Shown in pieces: positions 1 through 33,442 of a stretch of 64,000 bases of DNA. Position 1 is the stretch's first letter, and every line of letters begins with the position of its first letter. Where the stretch lies: the NCBI GenBank assembly GCA_025351785.1, contig JANXVF010000059.1, forward strand, positions 1 through 64,000, written 5' to 3'. This DNA comes from Flavobacterium sp. (GTDB taxonomy: Bacteria; Bacteroidota; Bacteroidia; Flavobacteriales; Flavobacteriaceae). The notes under the pieces are model-generated. The model was not told the origin of the DNA and did not search any database. It saw only the letters and a program-made list of their open reading frames with translations. A program made the position numbers and the translations under genes.

Positions 1-1144
1 AAGTTGTACAAGGCGTTGGATCAGTAGAAGTTCCAGTTACAGGAGTTCCAATTGGAGGGGTTCCAGTAGCTGTAGCTAAATTGTTGACCACACCAGCATC
101 AATATCTGCTTGAGTGATGATATGTACTGCAGTAAATGTAGTACTATCAGAAGCACCAACAGCAAGAGTTGCCAATGGACCACCAGTTACGGTTGCATTA
201 GGGTCAGTTACAGTAATGTTAGTAAGCGTTACGTTACCCGTATTAGTTACCACAAAAGCATACGTAATAGTATCCCCAACATTAGTTACACCAAATGGCG
301 CAGTAGTGTCAGTATATGTTCCGTCTTTAGTAACAGCAATACTTGGCGATGGCGTAAGCGGCGTTTGAGTACAAGTAGTACAAGGATTAACAGGACAAGT
401 TGTACAAGGCGTTGGATCAGTAGAAGTTCCAGTTACAGGAGTTCCAATTGGAGGGGTTCCAGTAGCTGTAGCTAAATTGTTGACCACACCAGCATCAATA
501 TCTGCTTGAGTAATAATGTGAACCGCAGTAAACGTTGTATTATCAGAAGCACCAACAGCAAGAGTTGCTAATGGACCACCAGTTACGGTTGCATTAGGGT
601 CAGTTACAGTAATGTTAGTAAGTGTTACGTTACCAGTATTAGTTACCACAAAAGCGTAAGTAATAGTATCCCCAACATTAGTCACACCAAATGGCGCAGT
701 AGTGTCAGCATACGTTCCGTCTTTAGTAACAGCAATACTTGGCGATGGCGTAAGCGGCGTTTGAGTACAAGTAGTACAAGTTGTTGTTGGACAAGTAGTA
801 CAAGGCGTTGGATCAGTAGAAGTTCCAGTTACAGGATTTCCAGTTGGAGGCGTTCCAGTAGCTGTAGCTAAATTGTTCACTACACCAGCATCAATATCTG
901 CTTGAGTAATAATGTGAACCGCAGTAAACGTAGTACTATCAGAAGCACCTACTGCAAGAGTTGCTAATGGACCACCAGTTACGGTTGCATTAGGGTCAGT
1001 TACAGTAATATTAGTAAGCGTTACGTTACCCGTATTAGTTACCACAAAAGCATAAGTAATAGTATCCCCAACATTAGTTACACCAAATGGCGCAGTAGTG
1101 TCAGTATACGTTCCGTCTTTAGTAATAGCAATACTTGGTGATTC
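1..1144 (-). repeat. Tandem 396-bp (132-aa) coding repeats: units 749..1144, 353..748 and partial 1..352
   Basis: The string gttggatcag in the same context recurs at 15, 411 and 807 (spacing 396 and 396). Units are nearly identical in nucleotide sequence and joined by CTTC-rich linkers. Confidence 0.92.
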
Positions 1145-4100
1145 TACAAAAACTGTTACAATTGCTGTATCACAATTTGTTGGATTTAAAGTTTCACAAA
1201 TTTGATATGTTACTGTGTAAGTTCCACCTGGTGTTGTTGGAGTAACATTAATTGAACCATCAATAGGATTTAAAGTCACACCAGGATTAGTAGTTGACAC
1301 TTGTGTCAAATTAACCATTGTAAGTGTTGCAGGATTACTATTCAACGTATCATTTATTAATACATTAGGATAAGATTGTCCACCTACTCCAGTTAAAACA
1401 TTATTACCGTTATCATTTACTGCATTAATATTTGCATTATTTACATTTACTGTTACAATTGCAGTATCACAATTAGTTGGATTTAATTTTTCACAAATTT
1501 GGTATGTAACTATATACGAACCAGAAGCAGTTCCTTGAGCAACATTTACTGACCCATCAATTGGATTCAATGTCACACCTGAATTAGTAGTTGACACTTG
1601 TATTAAATTAACCGTTAATAGCGTTGCAGAATTACTGTTAAGAGTATCATTTACAAGTACATTTTGTAAAGATTGTCCACCAGTTGCACCCACAATAGAA
1701 ATACCGTTATCATTTATTGCATCAATAGCAGGAGCCGTAACGGTCACAGTTGCAATAGCCGAATCACAATTGGTTGGATTTAATTTTTCACAAATTTGGT
1801 AAGTGATAGCATAAGTTCCAGCAGGTGTGTTAGCCGGAATAACCACATTACCCGTTGTAGGATCAATTGTTGGAACTGCTGCATTAGTAAATACAGGTGT
1901 TGCAGGGTTTGTTACAGTTAAGTTTACTTGCGCAATAGTAACGGGATTAGTGTTTAAAGTATCCGGAGTGTTACCACTAGACGGATTACTTAGAAGAACA
2001 TTTCCAGCATTAGGATTACCAGTAGTTCCATTACCACCAGCAATTGCATCGTTTACCGCATCAATAGCAGGCGCCGTAACTGGAATAGTAATTATTGCAG
2101 GGTCACAATTAGTTGGATTTAATTTTTCACATATTGTATAAGCGATAGTGTAGTTTCCAGCAGGCGTACCAGCAGGAACCGACACTACACCAGTTGTAGT
2201 ATTTAAAACAGGCACTAAAGCATTAGTAGCTACAGGAGTTGCTGCAGTTGTCACTGCAATATTTACAGTAGATACAGTAGCTTGAGCACTATTTAGAGTA
2301 TCAATACCACTACCATTATTAGCTAAAGCATTTCCAAGATTAGTATTACCAGTTGTTCCATTAGTAGGAGCAAAAGCATCATTTTGTGCTAGGATAGCAG
2401 GAGCCGTAACGGGTACAGTTACAATAGCGGTGTCACAATTGGATAAATTTAGAGTTTGACAGATTTTATAAGTTAAGGTGTAAGTTCCCGCAGGAGTTCC
2501 TGGAGCAACCACAACATTAATACCTGATAGAGTAACGCCAGGATTAGTTGAAGAGACAAATGTGGTTGTAACTTGCGAAGTGTTTGTTAGAGAACCGTTT
2601 AAAGTATCGTTTATAAGTACATTAGTAAAAGATGTTCCACCAACAAATCCATTTACTGGAAAACCAGCATCATTCCGTGCATCTATAACTGCTGCAACAG
2701 GAGTTGGGGTAACAGTAGAGGTATTGTTAACTAGATTGATGTCTTTTTGTAGACCCGATATTGTAGCAGTATTTGTATAGTTTCCACTACTATTAACTAA
2801 AGCAGTAATTATAAGTGAAACTGTACTGCCTACATTTAAATTTCCTATAGTCCAATTTGGACTTGTAAATGTGCCATTTCCTCCAGTATTAGCAGATATA
2901 AGAGTGTAACCAGAGGGTAATACGTCATTTACATTTACATTAGTTGCATTATTTGGACCATTGTTGGTCGCAGTCAATGTAAAAGTCATATTAAAACCAA
3001 TTGCTGGCGAACTTGTACTTGCAACTTTAACAATAGCTAAATCTGCAACAGGAACAGGAACTGGAGTTATAGTAGAAGTGTTATTAGATAAAACAGGATC
3101 GGGTAATGTACCAGAAATAGTTGCAGTATTAGAATAGTTGCCTGTAGAATTAACAGTTGCTAAAATAGTTAATGTAGCACTAGCACCATTTGATAGATTA
3201 CCAATATTCCAATTAGGTGAAGTCCAAGTACCTGTAGATGGTGAAGCACTTAAAAAAGTATAACCAGAAGGAAGAACATCATTAACTGTAACATTAGTAT
3301 TATTACTAGTACCAAGATTACTAGCTGTTAGTGTAAAAGTAACATTACTTCCTACATCAGGAGTTGAATTACTTACTGTTTTTATTATTTTTAAATCAGA
3401 ACAGCCTTTGTAAACAACAGAACTTACTGACGAACTTGTTAGTCCCCAACCCCAAGTATTTAATAATCTTACATTCCCATAGTCATTACAAGTAATACCA
3501 TCTGTTTCATTTGCACCAACTGCTGGTGCAGGAATAGTTTGTAGTAAATTTCCATCACCGCTCCATGCACGTGCAGGACTTGGTGTTCCATTTATAGAAT
3601 TGTTTAAACCAGCACCTGTTAAATTATTTTGGGCGTCTGCAGTACCTGCAGCACAAGTTGTTCCAACATTGATTAAAAAACTATCATCCCAAAACATTAA
3701 AGAATTAGGAATGGCTGTTGGAGCAATAGATTGGACATTAAATCCTTGTTTATTTAATTCAGCATCATATATAGGAAGGTTAAATCGTCCAGCCAAATAA
3801 TTTAAAGTTAAAGTCATATTAGTACCATCTGGCACCACATTTCCCATACCATCTAATCCATCCCAAGATAAACTATTATTTCCTGCAGGAACGCTGTAAG
3901 CTTCTATAATTAAATCTGAAGTCATTGGCTGATAACCAGGAGTACCATTCAAATCAAATAATAATCTGACATCTCCAGGGTTTGTAATATTATAGTTTAT
4001 AGCATAATTACCACTACCACAACCAGTTATTACTGGATTTAAAAAAGTAGGTGCTGCAGGAATTGCTGCAACAGGATATACTGAACTATCAGGATTATTT

Positions 4101-4975
4101 AAGAAAACTTTATAACCGTTTGTTAATGCTGGAATGGTTGCAGAATTTATTGAACGTCTTGTTACGTTAAATGCACCAGTTGGTGTAACACCATAACTAT
4201 TTACGGCTAGATTCCAAGCAATAGGCTCAAATCCGGGTCTAAAATCAATAAATAATATTACACTGTCAGCCGTGTAAACATAAAAATTCGGCTCAGAACT
4301 GGCCGTAACTGAATTTCCATATTGAGGACTAACTGCTACAAATCCCCATTTATCGCTGTGCAAACGACCATTTATTTTTAAACCTGATGACTTTGCAACC
4401 GTCATATCAAATAAAGCACCAACTGCTCTTCCAGTATTTGCACTTGCATCAACCGAAACGCCATTATCTAAACTTCTATAAAATTCAATCCAATGTTCAC
4501 CAGTAGTGGTTGGGTTAAATACTAATGGAGTATAACCTGTTGTAACACCACCTATATTTGGACCTATTAATGCTTTGGCATGTGTATCGATACTACCGGC
4601 TACACCTAATGTAGCATCCCACAACCCGCTCATAACAACAACACCAGATGGGTTGTAAATTTTATAATATAAATTTGTTATTCGTGCTGGAGTACCCACA
4701 GAATATCCCCGGAAATCGAAACCAAAATACATTTTTTCGTTACCAGAATTGGCAATATTAAAATATATTCTGTTGTCTTCTCCGCATCCACTGTAAGAAC
4801 CACTCTGTAAATCGGGAGCTACAAGTACAGCAGTAATATTTGATGCATTTGGAGAAAGTGTAGGTGTACCTTCTGCAAAAATTGTAGAACTGAATAAAAA
4901 AGCAACTAAAGTTAGTGAAAATTTAATTTTGTTAATAACTTTAGAAAATTCAGAAATTGAAGTAATTTTTTTCAT
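1..4975 (-). CDS. Large secreted repeat protein (surface adhesin-like; two DUF11-type domains, several Ig/cadherin-like repeats, DUF7507-like tandem repeats); C-terminus truncated by window edge
   Basis: Reverse complement from ATG at 4975 reads MKKITSISEFSKVINKIKFSLTLVAFLFSSTIFAEGTPTLSPNAS... (signal peptide) and stays open to base 1. Contains ADLAIVKVAS...GFNMTFTLTATNNGPNNATNVNVNDVLPSGYT (DUF11-like), repeated INPTNCDTAIVTV units, and SPSIAVTKDGTYTDTTAPFGVTNVGDTITYAFVVTNTGNVTLTNITVTDPN repeats. Confidence 0.9.
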   Translation of the reverse strand, partial: MKKITSISEFSKVINKIKFSLTLVAFLFSSTIFAEGTPTLSPNASNITAVLVAPDLQSGSYSGCGEDNRIYFNIANSGNEKMYFGFDFRGYSVGTPARITNLYYKIYNPSGVVVMSGLWDATLGVAGSIDTHAKALIGPNIGGVTTGYTPLVFNPTTTGEHWIEFYRSLDNGVSVDASANTGRAVGALFDMTVAKSSGLKINGRLHSDKWGFVAVSPQYGNSVTASSEPNFYVYTADSVILFIDFRPGFEPIAWNLAVNSYGVTPTGAFNVTRRSINSATIPALTNGYKVFLNNPDSSVYPVAAIPAAPTFLNPVITGCGSGNYAINYNITNPGDVRLLFDLNGTPGYQPMTSDLIIEAYSVPAGNNSLSWDGLDGMGNVVPDGTNMTLTLNYLAGRFNLPIYDAELNKQGFNVQSIAPTAIPNSLMFWDDSFLINVGTTCAAGTADAQNNLTGAGLNNSINGTPSPARAWSGDGNLLQTIPAPAVGANETDGITCNDYGNVRLLNTWGWGLTSSSVSSVVYKGCSDLKIIKTVSNSTPDVGSNVTFTLTASNLGTSNNTNVTVNDVLPSGYTFLSASPSTGTWTSPNWNIGNLSNGASATLTILATVNSTGNYSNTATISGTLPDPVLSNNTSTITPVPVPVADLAIVKVASTSSPAIGFNMTFTLTATNNGPNNATNVNVNDVLPSGYTLISANTGGNGTFTSPNWTIGNLNVGSTVSLIITALVNSSGNYTNTATISGLQKDINLVNNTSTVTPTPVAAVIDARNDAGFPVNGFVGGTSFTNVLINDTLNGSLTNTSQVTTTFVSSTNPGVTLSGINVVVAPGTPAGTYTLTYKICQTLNLSNCDTAIVTVPVTAPAILAQNDAFAPTNGTTGNTNLGNALANNGSGIDTLNSAQATVSTVNIAVTTAATPVATNALVPVLNTTTGVVSVPAGTPAGNYTIAYTICEKLNPTNCDPAIITIPVTAPAIDAVNDAIAGGNGTTGNPNAGNVLLSNPSSGNTPDTLNTNPVTIAQVNLTVTNPATPVFTNAAVPTIDPTTGNVVIPANTPAGTYAITYQICEKLNPTNCDSAIATVTVTAPAIDAINDNGISIVGATGGQSLQNVLVNDTLNSNSATLLTVNLIQVSTTNSGVTLNPIDGSVNVAQGTASGSYIVTYQICEKLNPTNCDTAIVTVNVNNANINAVNDNGNNVLTGVGGQSYPNVLINDTLNSNPATLTMVNLTQVSTTNPGVTLNPIDGSINVTPTTPGGTYTVTYQICETLNPTNCDTAIVTVFVESPSIAITKDGTYTDTTAPFGVTNVGDTITYAFVVTNTGNVTLTNITVTDPNATVTGGPLATLAVGASDSTTFTAVHIITQADIDAGVVNNLATATGTPPTGNPVTGTSTDPTPCTTCPTTTCTTCTQTPLTPSPSIAVTKDGTYADTTAPFGVTNVGDTITYAFVVTNTGNVTLTNITVTDPNATVTGGPLATLAVGASDNTTFTAVHIITQADIDAGVVNNLATATGTPPIGTPVTGTSTDPTPCTTCPVNPCTTCTQTPLTPSPSIAVTKDGTYTDTTAPFGVTNVGDTITYAFVVTNTGNVTLTNITVTDPNATVTGGPLATLAVGASDSTTFTAVHIITQADIDAGVVNNLATATGTPPIGTPVTGTSTDPTPCTT
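1145..2720 (-). repeat. Five degenerate ~100-114 aa repeats (xINAVNDxxx...LNPTNCDTAIVTV)
   Basis: The tcacaattxgttggattta block recurs near 1165, 1468, 1765, 2102 and 2437, giving irregular spacings of about 290-340 bp. Confidence 0.75.
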
Positions 4976-5402
4976 GCTTATTGTTGTTTTTTTGATTGGG
5001 TCAATAAAATTCAAATTCTAAAAATTGAACTTTAATTATTAAAATACGAAACAAAACTAACGTTCAATTTTGTTTATCAACTATTAAATCTATGAATAAC
5101 AGTAATAGTCGTTAAAATGCTTAAATTAAAAAATAAATTTTAGTTACTTTGCTTTTCATATTTCATAATCGTAATCTTTACAAATAAAATTTTTATAAAA
5201 ATTAATTTGAATATTTAGTTATTAACAATTTTAAACACTGAATTGTTTAACGCTAAATACTTCACAAAACTAAATTTCATTATTCAATAAAACAAGTATT
5301 TTATCGATTAAATACAAAAAATGACTGTTTAAATGCAAAAATATATTTAAAATTAAATATATTCTTACAAATCTGTTTAAATCTTATATTATAAATTCTG
5401 TA

Positions 5403-17587: not shown

Positions 17588-17618
17588 AAAAACCGTTTGC
17601 TTTTGGCAAACGGTTTTT
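17588..17618 (-). terminator. Intrinsic terminator after proteorhodopsin gene
   Basis: AAAAACCGTTTGC-TTTTG-GCAAACGGTTTTT, strong stem, T/A flanked. Confidence 0.88.
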
Positions 17619-17639
17619 AACCAATAAACTTAAAATAAA

Positions 17640-18365
17640 CTATTTATCAGTTGATTTAACAGCTAAACTATAAACTACTAAACCAAACCCGATTTTGTTG
17701 ATAGCATCTGCAATGTTGTAAGCTACATCTACACTACCTTTTCCTAAAACTGATGTGTACCATCCGTCAGTCCCTAACATATATCCTAAAGGATAAATTG
17801 CCCAACCAACTAATACAAACCAACATAATATTTTGTGAGCTGCTAAAACATCTCCACCAGCATTTTTTGCTAATTTTGAAGCACTTCCTAACCATATCTC
17901 ATATGCAATTGCAAAATAAGCAACTCCAGAGATGAAACCCCAAATTTGAGCTTGGTCTTTGAAAATTGTTTCTCCTAAATATCCTGTAACTAACATTACG
18001 ATAGAATAGAAGATCATTTTCCATAATAATCCTGTTTTTGCTCCTGCTACTTTCAAGATTAAATAAAACTCTACACACATCAATGGAACTGTAAGTACCC
18101 AGTCAACATATCTGAAGAATGTTGGCGACTCATGAAACTCTCCCCAGTATTCTTTCATGTAGAAATAATGCACTGCTGCAATAAAGGTAATCAATCCAGA
18201 GACTAAAACTGAAGTACGCCACTTTTTATCAAATTGATTTAATGATAAAAAGAAAAATGCAGATGCAGCCATCATAGCCATGCAACCTACAAAAAATGTA
18301 AATCCAGTGTAATCATCTGGTAACATTTTAGAAACTGAAGCAGAAATAAACATAAAATTTGTCAT
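17640..18365 (-). CDS. Proteorhodopsin, DTE-type (predicted light-driven proton pump)
   Basis: 241 aa, 7 TM; RYVDWVLTVPLMCVEFYLIL (helix C D-T-E triad), VHYFYMKEYW, helix G ADAINKIGFG retinal lysine. Confidence 0.96.
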   Translation of the reverse strand: MTNFMFISASVSKMLPDDYTGFTFFVGCMAMMAASAFFFLSLNQFDKKWRTSVLVSGLITFIAAVHYFYMKEYWGEFHESPTFFRYVDWVLTVPLMCVEFYLILKVAGAKTGLLWKMIFYSIVMLVTGYLGETIFKDQAQIWGFISGVAYFAIAYEIWLGSASKLAKNAGGDVLAAHKILCWFVLVGWAIYPLGYMLGTDGWYTSVLGKGSVDVAYNIADAINKIGFGLVVYSLAVKSTDK

Positions 18366-18421
18366 AATAAAATGAATTTGGTTAAATTATTTGTTTTACA
18401 CAATTGGTTAAATTGTTTAAG

Positions 18422-18429
18422 CAAATATA
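18422..18429 (-). promoter_or_regulatory. Bacteroidetes -7 box (TATATTTG) for proteorhodopsin
   Basis: Exact TAnnTTTG on the minus strand, about 56 nt upstream of the ATG. Confidence 0.45.
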
Positions 18430-18499
18430 AAGAACACTAAACAAAAATAAAAACTTTTGTTTACTTTTTTTTAACTATTTTTAAACAATAATTAAAATT

Positions 18500-19381
18500 A
18501 TGTTGAAAAACTCTAACTTATCAATAGTTGCAAGCTTTTTAGGGCTTTGGATAACCTCTTTTTTTGAAAATAAATTGCAAATTATATTTGGTTTTGTGCT
18601 TATTTTATCTTTTGGCATACTTCATGGCGCAAACGATTTAGTTCTTTTTATGAAAATTAACGATTCAAATAGGTCAACTTCATTTATTAAGTTAATTTCT
18701 TCCTATATATCTGTAGTTTTATTTTCGGCATTTTTATTTTTAATAATCCCTTGGCTTGCACTTTTATTATTTATACTTATAAGTGGTTACCATTTTGGAG
18801 AACAACACTGGCAGGAACTTGATGTTAATAATTCTAAATGGTTAAAATCTATTTTTCAATTTAACTATGGTATTTTTATTCTGTTGCTTTTATTTGAATT
18901 TCACATCAAAGAAGTTGATAAAATAATTTTTTCTATAATCGATATTGATGTAGCTTTTATTAATATTAAAAACTTAGCATTAATTTCTGGAATTTCACTA
19001 ATTTTTTTCTTCCTATATTTTTATTACAAATCAGAAAAATTTAGAATTAATATAATTGAGGAGTTATTTTACCTATTGGTATTTTTGATTTTGTTTAAAG
19101 TTGGGAGTTTAATTTGGGGATTTGCGCTATATTTCATTTTTTGGCACAGTATTCCTTCTCTACGTGATCAAATTCGTTTTTTGTATGGTACTTATTCTTT
19201 CGATAATTTTAAATTATATTTTAAATCTGCTTTTGCATATTGGATAATTTCACTTTTGGGAATCACTATTTTATATTTATTTTTTAAAGATTATAAACTT
19301 TTTGATGCTATATTCTTTTCTTTTTTGGCATCAATAACATTCCCTCATGCATGGGTTATTTTAAAAATGTTTAAGAAATAA
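18500..19381 (+). CDS. blh: Brp/Blh family beta-carotene 15,15'-dioxygenase (retinal synthesis)
   Basis: Multi-TM; GILHGANDLVL, SGYHFGEQHWQ, FIFWHSIPSLRDQI and FPHAWVIL histidine motifs typical of Blh. Confidence 0.92.
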   Translation: MLKNSNLSIVASFLGLWITSFFENKLQIIFGFVLILSFGILHGANDLVLFMKINDSNRSTSFIKLISSYISVVLFSAFLFLIIPWLALLLFILISGYHFGEQHWQELDVNNSKWLKSIFQFNYGIFILLLLFEFHIKEVDKIIFSIIDIDVAFINIKNLALISGISLIFFFLYFYYKSEKFRINIIEELFYLLVFLILFKVGSLIWGFALYFIFWHSIPSLRDQIRFLYGTYSFDNFKLYFKSAFAYWIISLLGITILYLFFKDYKLFDAIFFSFLASITFPHAWVILKMFKK

Positions 19382-19388
19382 ACAAAAA

Positions 19389-19416
19389 AAAGCCGAGTTA
19401 TTGCTAACTCGACTTT
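19389..19416. terminator. Bidirectional terminator between convergent blh and dnaK
   Basis: AAAGCCGAGTTA-TTGC-TAACTCGACTTT (one mismatch) flanked by A-run and T-run. Confidence 0.8.
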
Positions 19417-19464
19417 TTAAAATTAATTTAATCCAAAAGAACTAAAAGAAAAGTTTAAATTTTA

Positions 19465-21629: not shown

Positions 21630-22883
21630 GTGAAACCAGAAGTTATTATAATAGGTGCAGGAATTTCAGGATTAACAGCAGCTGTTTATCTTCATAAAAT
21701 GGGTAAAAAAGTTTTAATTCTTGAAGCCACAGATAGAGTAGGAGGCAGAATTAAAACAGATGTTGTAGATGGATTTCGTTTTGATCACGGATTTCAAGTG
21801 CTTCTCGATTCATATCCAGAGACAAAAAAATTATTGGATTATGAAAAGCTACATTTAAAAAAATTTCTACCTGGTGCTACAGTTCTTTATGACGGAGGCC
21901 AGTTTGAAATTGCCGATCCGTTTCGTCGTCCTACAGCATTATTCTCTACAATCTTTGCTCCAGTTGGTAGTTTTAGGGACAAATTAAACACCTTAGTTTT
22001 AAAGTTTAGATTAGTAAAGATTTCAATTCCTACAATTTTTAAACAAGAAGAAACAGCAACTCATATTCATCTAAAAAATATCGGATTTAGTAAAAAAATG
22101 ATTGACCTTTTTTATAAACCTTTTTTTTCGGGAATATTTTTAGAGAATACCTTAGAAACCTCAAATAGAATGTTTGATTTTGTTATGAAAATGTTTTCTG
22201 ATGGAAATGCCACAATTCCAGAGCTTGGAATGGAAGAAATTCCAAAACAATTGGAATCAATGTTGCCCAAGGAAACAATTATTTTTAATACTAAAATTTT
22301 AAATATTGATAAAAACAAGATTCAAACAGAATGTAATAAAGAGTATGAAGCTCCTTTTATATTGATTGCTACAGAGGCTTCTACCTTTGTTAAGAAGTAT
22401 CTTCCTGATGTAAATATAAAATCGCATTCGGTTACCAATGTATATTTTGAAACTGATGTTGCCCCAAATAAAAATGCTGTTGTAATTTTAAATGCTTCCC
22501 ACAAAAGAAAATGGGTGACAAACTTGACAGTAATGACAAATGTTTCAAAAAAATATGCCCCAAATGGTAAAGTTTTAATATCTGTATCTTGTAATGGAAT
22601 TCCTGAAATTTCAGATCAGGAACTTGCCATCAATATTCAAACAGAATTAGCACAATGGTATGGTGAAAAAACTACAACTTGGAAATTTTTAAGAGCTTAC
22701 AGAGTTAAATATGCTTTACCAAATTTAGAAACTATCGAAAATGAAATTGATATCTCTAAAATGCAAATTTCAGAAAATCTTTTTGTTTGTGGCGATCATT
22801 TGTTAAATGGTTCTATAAATGCTGCAATGAAAACGGGAAGGTTGGTTGCCGAAATAATCTCGAAACAAGCTGTAAATAGTTAA
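21630..22883 (+). CDS. NAD(P)/FAD-dependent amine oxidase / phytoene-desaturase-like oxidoreductase
   Basis: [40 protein letters not shown]-terminal [29 protein letters not shown] start. Confidence 0.9.
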
Positions 22884-32479: not shown

Positions 32480-33442
32480 ATGAAACGAATTTTTAAAAGT
32501 ATTGTGTTTGTTTTTTGTTTGAGTTTTTTTATAAGTTGCAGTAAAACTGATGATTTACAAGATAGGACTATTACAAATTTAATCGATTCGCAACCAAATT
32601 TATCTATTTTTCGTGCAGCATTAATACAAACTGATATTTATAATTTGCTGAAAGGAACAACTGCTTATACCGTTTTTGCTCCGTCTGATGCGGCTTTTAA
32701 TACTTTTTTGACAAACAGTGGTTATACAACAATTGATGCTGTCCCTAACGATGTTCTGACTCAAATTTTATTAAATCACATTGTTGTAGGTTCGAAAACT
32801 ACAGGAAATTTTCTAGACAATACTTATGTAAAAACTTTAGCAACAAAAAATGCAACTTTGCCATTAGTTTATTTGGATTTATATGTTGGAAATAACGGAA
32901 GTGCTGTAAAAATTAATGGTACAATAAATTTGCTAACACCAAATATAGTAGCCAATAATGGGATTATTCATACTATTGATGGAGTAATAAAACTGCCAAC
33001 AGTTTTTGATCAAATAGTTTCCAATCCCAAATTAAATATTTTTAAAACGACTATAACTTCTGCTGGTCAACCTAATTTTGCACAACTTTTATCATCTTCG
33101 GTAAATGTAACTACTGCTTTTGTTCCGACTGATGCTGCTTTTAATTCTTTAAATGCTGATTTACCTGTAAATGCTGGTTTAACAACTTTTAGTACAGATA
33201 TGAAAACCAAACTTATTTACTATCATTTGGTAAATAGTTATTTGCCTTCTTCACTTTTTACAAATAATCTAGTAGTGGCAACAGAGTTAAATCCGCAAAC
33301 ATTTACAATTCAAAAAGGTGGAACTTTAAATAATTTTATCGATCAACAAGGAAGATCTGGTGCTATAATTGTAACCGATATTCAGTGTACTAATGGAGTT
33401 ATCCATTTGTTAGATAAAGTGATGTTGCCAAATTTTAATTAG
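32480..33442 (+). CDS. Fasciclin domain-containing lipoprotein (two domains)
   Basis: Lipobox SFFISCSK; YTVFAPSDAAFNTFL...LLNHIVVGS and TTAFVPTDAAFNSL...YHLVNSYL. Confidence 0.94.
   Translation: MKRIFKSIVFVFCLSFFISCSKTDDLQDRTITNLIDSQPNLSIFRAALIQTDIYNLLKGTTAYTVFAPSDAAFNTFLTNSGYTTIDAVPNDVLTQILLNHIVVGSKTTGNFLDNTYVKTLATKNATLPLVYLDLYVGNNGSAVKINGTINLLTPNIVANNGIIHTIDGVIKLPTVFDQIVSNPKLNIFKTTITSAGQPNFAQLLSSSVNVTTAFVPTDAAFNSLNADLPVNAGLTTFSTDMKTKLIYYHLVNSYLPSSLFTNNLVVATELNPQTFTIQKGGTLNNFIDQQGRSGAIIVTDIQCTNGVIHLLDKVMLPNFN

Follow-up and report, generated by a model that had tools for sequence, protein, structure and literature searches.

Proteorhodopsin (PR) and the retinal-forming enzyme Blh probably belong, in a Flavobacterium, to a light regulon of the CarH/LitR type that would be repressed in the dark. 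The two genes lie in a stretch of 64,000 nucleotides, hereafter called the window. The gene pair itself is ordinary and its arrangement has already been published; the new part is a set of operator-like dyads in the 134-bp gap between the two genes. In the openly accessible, non-preprint literature that we searched, we found no paper linking CarH/LitR to proteorhodopsin and no transcriptional regulator named for a flavobacterial proteorhodopsin. If our reading is true, the harvesting of sunlight and the defence against it depend on a single light switch, which ties light-energy capture to photoprotection in a group of bacteria common in lakes and seas. The dyad is also a motif that could be used to map the regulon in metagenomes, and a defined operator together with a candidate photoreceptor makes the regulatory idea testable.

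Both open reading frames lie where the initial annotation had placed them: PR (241 aa) occupies 17640..18365 on the reverse strand, and blh, encoding a beta-carotene 15,15'-dioxygenase of the Brp/Blh family (293 aa), occupies 18500..19381 on the forward strand. The genes stand head to head, and the distance between their ATGs, previously given as about 134 bp, is exactly that (18366..18499); the corresponding gap measures 102-142 bp in nearly all congeners. A hairpin with a T-run lies directly 3' of PR (17590..17619, reverse strand, aaaccgtttg...caaacggttttt) and another 3' of blh, ahead of the convergent dnaK (19384..19418, forward strand, aaagccgagttattgctaactcgacttttt). Both hairpins, which were read by eye and are unscored, are likely terminators, and since one of them ends each gene, PR and blh are probably separate transcription units. 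The host genome (2.86 Mb, Flavobacterium-type, 176 contigs, 99.9% complete) contains a single rhodopsin gene and a single blh, a genome-wide search having found no second copy of either. At the start of the window, positions 2-5014 of the reverse strand encode a very large repetitive protein of secreted type (at least 1671 aa), which is built of near-identical tandem repeats and runs off the window start.

PR matches the bacteriorhodopsin-like seven-helix family PF01036 (135 bits, cut-off 24.6, E=2.9e-39), and its closest solved chains in the PDB, 9jov and 9jou, are both named Proteorhodopsin (E ~5e-113, with 238 residues aligned with 9jov). In an alignment with PDB sequences, the residues D88-T92-M96-E99 of RYVDWVLTVPLMCVE fall on D97-T101-L/Q105-E108 of proteorhodopsins, which gives D88, T92 and E99 as the acceptor, Thr and donor positions and M96 as the tuning position. 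The Schiff-base lysine is K224, in helix G, and H66 and D220 are also present. The D-T-E triad of helix C and the methionine eight residues after the aspartate, both read from the sequence earlier, are thus borne out. None of the seven residues varies among 29 congeners, and for the triad, M96 and K224 this extends to 80 named-genome loci. Methionine at the equivalent of position 105 suggests that green light is absorbed.

Blh is placed in the Brp/Blh family by its matches to PF15461 (E=1.7e-38) and TIGR03753 (E=7.7e-55; 186 bits, with the cut-off at 95), both above cut-off, and by the histidine motifs HGxxD, YHFGxxH, WHS and FPHA, all of which are found in the translation as had been annotated; no PDB sequence matched it. 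A search of the genome for crtEBIY, the check proposed at the outset, located a cluster on C58 that comprises a MerR/B12-domain regulator, CrtI (NF058655, 718 bits; TIGR02734, 375 bits), a squalene/phytoene synthase (CrtB) and, 3' of crtB, a CrtZ-like reading frame of 147 aa to which no Pfam or NCBIfam model matched. The lycopene cyclase gene crtY lies on C108, apart from crtIBZ, and one of the two polyprenyl synthases in the genome is probably crtE. As crtI, crtB, crtY and crtZ were found, the beta-carotene route is present in the genome, and Blh would cleave the beta-carotene made by the crtB/crtI/crtY pathway, yielding retinal for PR. An amine-oxidase-like flavoprotein encoded in the window itself (21630-22883) was considered as a carotenoid desaturase and rejected, as it scores far below every CrtI cut-off.

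The triad, K224, the PF01036 and TIGR03753/PF15461 matches and the crt genes together lend good support to the earlier claim of a proton pump with retinal synthesis. By its sequence, PR is almost certainly such a pump, served by Blh; it would be retinal-based, driven by light and directed outwards, probably with green absorption. Some rhodopsins of similar fold are sensory, and on this general ground PR might be taken for a light sensor instead of a pump. However, the D-T-E triad does not vary among relatives, nor do H66 and D220 among congeners, no transducer gene is adjacent and the nearest solved structures bear the name proteorhodopsin, which makes a sensory role very improbable.

The initial annotation had described the locus as minimal. 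This is incomplete, since PR also bears the glycine of a carotenoid antenna site. The equivalent of XR Gly156 is G143, in the motif WGFIS-G, and that of XR Tyr207 is Y191, so that the protein has the residues of an antenna rhodopsin, with Gly and not a bulky side chain at XR 156 and Tyr at XR 207; at the G143 position, Trp is found in 4jq6, the structure of a green-type PR. XR Gly156 (Kin4B8 Gly153) has been named as the main residue by which a carotenoid site is recognised, and KR1, a flavobacterial PR of Dokdonia eikasta, binds the xanthophylls lutein and zeaxanthin (PMC12308411). KR1 is of the same flavobacterial PR family and has a Kin4B8-like carotenoid site, of which the window PR carries the defining Gly and the conserved Tyr; however, carotenoid binding was shown for KR1 and is only predicted for the window PR, whose host is of freshwater type. 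As the genome also encodes CrtY and a CrtZ-like protein, zeaxanthin is a plausible antenna, and PR can probably take up this hydroxylated carotenoid.

Rhodopsins of the PR type occur in 60 of the 200 Flavobacterium genomes searched, nearly always head to head with blh. The head-to-head arrangement was found in 29/29 congener loci (in L013, a second PR copy takes that place) and in 72 of 80 named-genome loci, the others being cut by contig ends (4), having blh on the other side (2) or having no adjacent blh (2). L197, one of the two loci with blh on the other side, is a contig of the PR-blh-PR tandem. In two congener genomes, G143 and G014 (L040:5862-8364, L041:1-2150), near-identical PR copies flank blh, and the key motifs are intact in both copies of L040. 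The PR genes of a Fluviicola-labelled MAG (L250) and a Flavobacteriales MAG (L265) have no blh nearby, and the retinal source or the location of blh therefore differs in them. Two MAG records with Flavobacterium-type PR loci bear the titles Rhizobium sp. Q54 (L201) and Bifidobacterium breve (L208) and are evidently mislabelled. Between the window (17640-19381) and the congener loci L009-L037, PR is conserved at 79-93% and Blh at only 39-75%. Divergent PR/blh genes have been described before in Bacteroidota, among them Flavobacterium sp. TH167 (PMC5887021). Strain TH167 resembles the window host in that PR and blh stand head to head, crtI-crtB-crtZ form a cluster under a regulator of the MerR family, and both crtY and crtE lie elsewhere; however, that paper names no operator and does not connect the MerR regulator with PR/blh.

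When the gaps are aligned, their conserved blocks resolve into a 32-bp inverted repeat, TTGTTTAA-N16-TTAAACAA. The window gap holds two copies with one mismatch each: dyad 1 (TTGTTTAA-N16-CTAAACAA, 18413..18444) lies on the PR promoter, and dyad 2 (TTGTTTAC-N16-TTAAACAA, 18457..18488) ends 11 bp 5' of the blh ATG. No further copy with at most one mismatch was found in the 64-kb window. Among 29 PR/blh gaps, from the host genome and 28 congeners, 27 contain the N16 dyad with at most two mismatches (41 sites) and two do not; in 200 Markov shuffles, the number of regions with a dyad averaged 0.4 and never exceeded 3. Other spacers in the same gaps mostly gave 0-10 sites, spacer 6 giving 23. The pattern recurred in 78 upstream regions of named genomes, a collection partly shared with the congener set: N16 accounted for 103 sites in 64 regions and any other spacer for at most 10, and the N16 matches extend to Winogradskyella, Psychroserpens, Lacinutrix and Algibacter.

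The position of the dyad relative to the promoter is also conserved. The PR -7 box TATATTTG (18422..18429, reverse strand), of the Bacteroidota type TAnnTTTG, falls within the spacer of dyad 1; among 24 PR-proximal dyads, TAnnTTTG keeps the same offset of 15 in 15, and the TA does so in 22-23. Because the -7 box sits between the half-sites, a protein bound at the dyad would cover the PR promoter. The TTGTTTAA near PR was considered as a -33 box and rejected: its distance to TAnnTTTG is just 12 bp, and it recurs as N16 inverted pairs. It is very likely that the dyad is a real regulatory site common to several loci. Co-regulation of the two genes by light or redox had been proposed from the closeness of their start codons: the gap sequence strongly supports light, whereas the 134-bp distance alone is weak grounds and nothing supports redox.

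Elsewhere, the host genome has two exact dyads, one ahead of a flavin reductase/cryptochrome-DASH/DPRP photolyase-like operon and the other ahead of msrA-folE. With one mismatch there are the two gap dyads and one more upstream of TetR_C_23-AarF, and with two mismatches the sites include those at carH-crtIBZ, SRPBCC-SDR-photolyase, DUF2452 and DUF3050; this gene list is partly picked, as 8 of about 30 places with at most two mismatches were inspected. No listed dyad accompanies crtY. At up to three mismatches the dyad is not enriched over the whole host genome (257 matches against 391 in a reversed control); near-exact matches alone are informative. In 40 Flavobacterium genomes, 129 exact dyads with a spacer of 8 to 24 were counted, against 22 in the reversed control. 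The surroundings were examined for 62 of these 129, exact dyads at PR/blh loci being left out: 44 have spacer 16, and 40 of the 44 are intergenic. Homologues of the light set, defined as the genes at host-genome dyads, adjoin 30 of 42 N16 sites outside the host genome and 0 of 17 sites with another spacer (Fisher p=1.9e-7). The congener genes concerned encode cryptochrome-DASH, photolyases, msrA-folE and similar functions. A shared operator is thus well supported, and the regulatory claim that we attach to it rests on sequence statistics.

The candidate for the protein that binds the dyad is encoded at C58:41265-42164, at the head of crtIBZ. It combines MerR DNA-binding domains (PF13411, PF00376) with a B12-binding domain (PF02607, B12-binding_2) and aligns with CarH of T. 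thermophilus, of which W131, E141, H142 and H177 are kept in 30/30 orthologues. The motifs Wx9EH and D/ExHxxG are intact, with W143, E153, H154, H193 and G196 invariant in these orthologues; Wx9EH and ExHxxG are said to mark B12-dependent CarH (PMC9304148). The rest of the classic B12 motif has drifted: SxT/V has its Ser in 16/30 and Cys instead in 11/30, and GG has become GR/GK. In addition, CarH H132 is Gln in 29/30, and the protein reaches 61.5 bits with the NCBIfam CarH equivalog, for which the cut-off is 400. We call it CarH-like, and not CarH, because of the degenerate later B12 motif and the Gln at H132. Each of the 29 loci read has the dyad at the CarH-like gene, with N16 in 23 and N17 in 6; the carH-proximal copy often ends in the start codon, its half-site partly coinciding with ATG AAC AA. 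In several species, a dyad also lies between carH and crtI. The operator-like element of PR/blh is thus common to the regulator's own gene and to photoprotection genes. Binding of the CarH-like protein to the dyad appears likely, and the chances that B12 itself senses light directly in this protein are about even.

Two known systems are close to the one proposed here. CarH of Thermus thermophilus/Myxococcus (PDB 3whp, 5c8d; PMC8156234, PMC9304148) likewise joins a MerR DNA-binding domain to a B12 domain with intact Wx9EH and ExHxxG, its gene heads a carotenoid cluster and its operator overlaps the promoter. The differences are that its operators are 11-bp direct repeats (PMC8156234) whereas the window dyad is inverted, that H132 and the later B12 motif are altered in our protein, and that neither PR nor blh is a known target. 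Class II LitR of Pseudomonas (PplR1/PmlR2) is a MerR-type repressor that gets its light signal from a LOV protein and controls the light-inducible phrB, SDR, folE and cryB (PMC9758184). These genes, with their short-chain dehydrogenase, closely match the company of the dyad, and the LitR site, TGTACA-N12-TGTACA, also consists of two spaced half-sites overlapping promoters (PMC9758184). However, the half-site and spacing differ from TTGTTTAA-N16-TTAAACAA, and PR, blh and crt genes are included here.

Against such a regulon count the incomplete B12 motif and low CarH score of the regulator, the direct-repeat form of known CarH operators, the partial overlap of the carH-proximal half-site with the start codons, the two gaps that lack the dyad, the missing genome-wide excess at up to three mismatches and crtY, which has no listed dyad. 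The gap motifs could also be mere promoter elements (TTG / TAnnTTTG) in AT-rich DNA, serving an ordinary PR/Blh pair with constitutive or growth-phase promoters. Divergent PR/blh genes are indeed normal in Bacteroidota (PMC5887021), the flavobacterial -7 box does lie inside dyad 1 and the background is AT-rich, but promoter elements leave unexplained why inverted half-sites keep a fixed spacer of 16 in 27/29 gaps (0.4 in shuffles) and why exact dyads stand at photolyase, cryptochrome and carotenoid genes of other genomes; we regard this explanation as quite unlikely. It is unlikely that the dyad is real and bound by another light or oxidative-stress regulator, for instance the TetR_C_23 protein, in which case PR and blh would belong to a photo-oxidative stress regulon that CarH does not control directly. 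The TetR_C_23-AarF operon carries the dyad not only in the host genome (one mismatch) but also, exactly, in several congeners, and a long palindrome with separated half-sites is unlike the published CarH direct repeats (PMC8156234). Spaced half-sites are, however, what LitR-class MerR proteins use (PMC9758184), the gene company at the dyads matches LitR regulons, and the dyad accompanies the CarH-like gene in every one of the 29 loci read and also lies between carH and crtI in several species.

In the CarH/LitR-type regulon that we favour, PR and blh would be transcribed outwards from one 134-bp region with two 32-bp inverted repeats, and the same type of operator would front the CarH/LitR-like MerR gene with crtIBZ and the photolyase, cryptochrome-DASH, msrA-folE and similar operons. 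Darkness would leave these operators occupied by the CarH-like repressor and the promoters blocked. Light would release the repressor, with either its bound adenosylcobalamin or a partner photoreceptor as the sensor, and the release would switch on the pump, retinal, carotenoids and photo-repair together. In its strictest form, in which a CarH-like B12 photoreceptor-repressor directly controls PR and retinal synthesis through the dyad common to carotenoid synthesis and photo-repair, in Flavobacterium and related Flavobacteriaceae, we hold the proposal with confidence and doubt in equal measure.

Other genes were also found beside the dyad. Seven further N16 sites precede fasciclin-domain lipoprotein genes in other species (L128, L133, L142, L147, L152, L153, L167), and as these genes recur directly 3' of N16 dyads, the lipoproteins may be light-regulated. 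The fasciclin gene of the window (32480-33442) was rejected as a regulon member, there being no dyad with at most three mismatches nearby. In seven loci (L134, L136, L140, L144, L149, L159, L168), an FAD monooxygenase of 446 aa, which we take to resemble kynurenine 3-monooxygenase, faces the flavin reductase/cryptochrome operon head to head across the dyad, which suggests a conserved light-linked pair.
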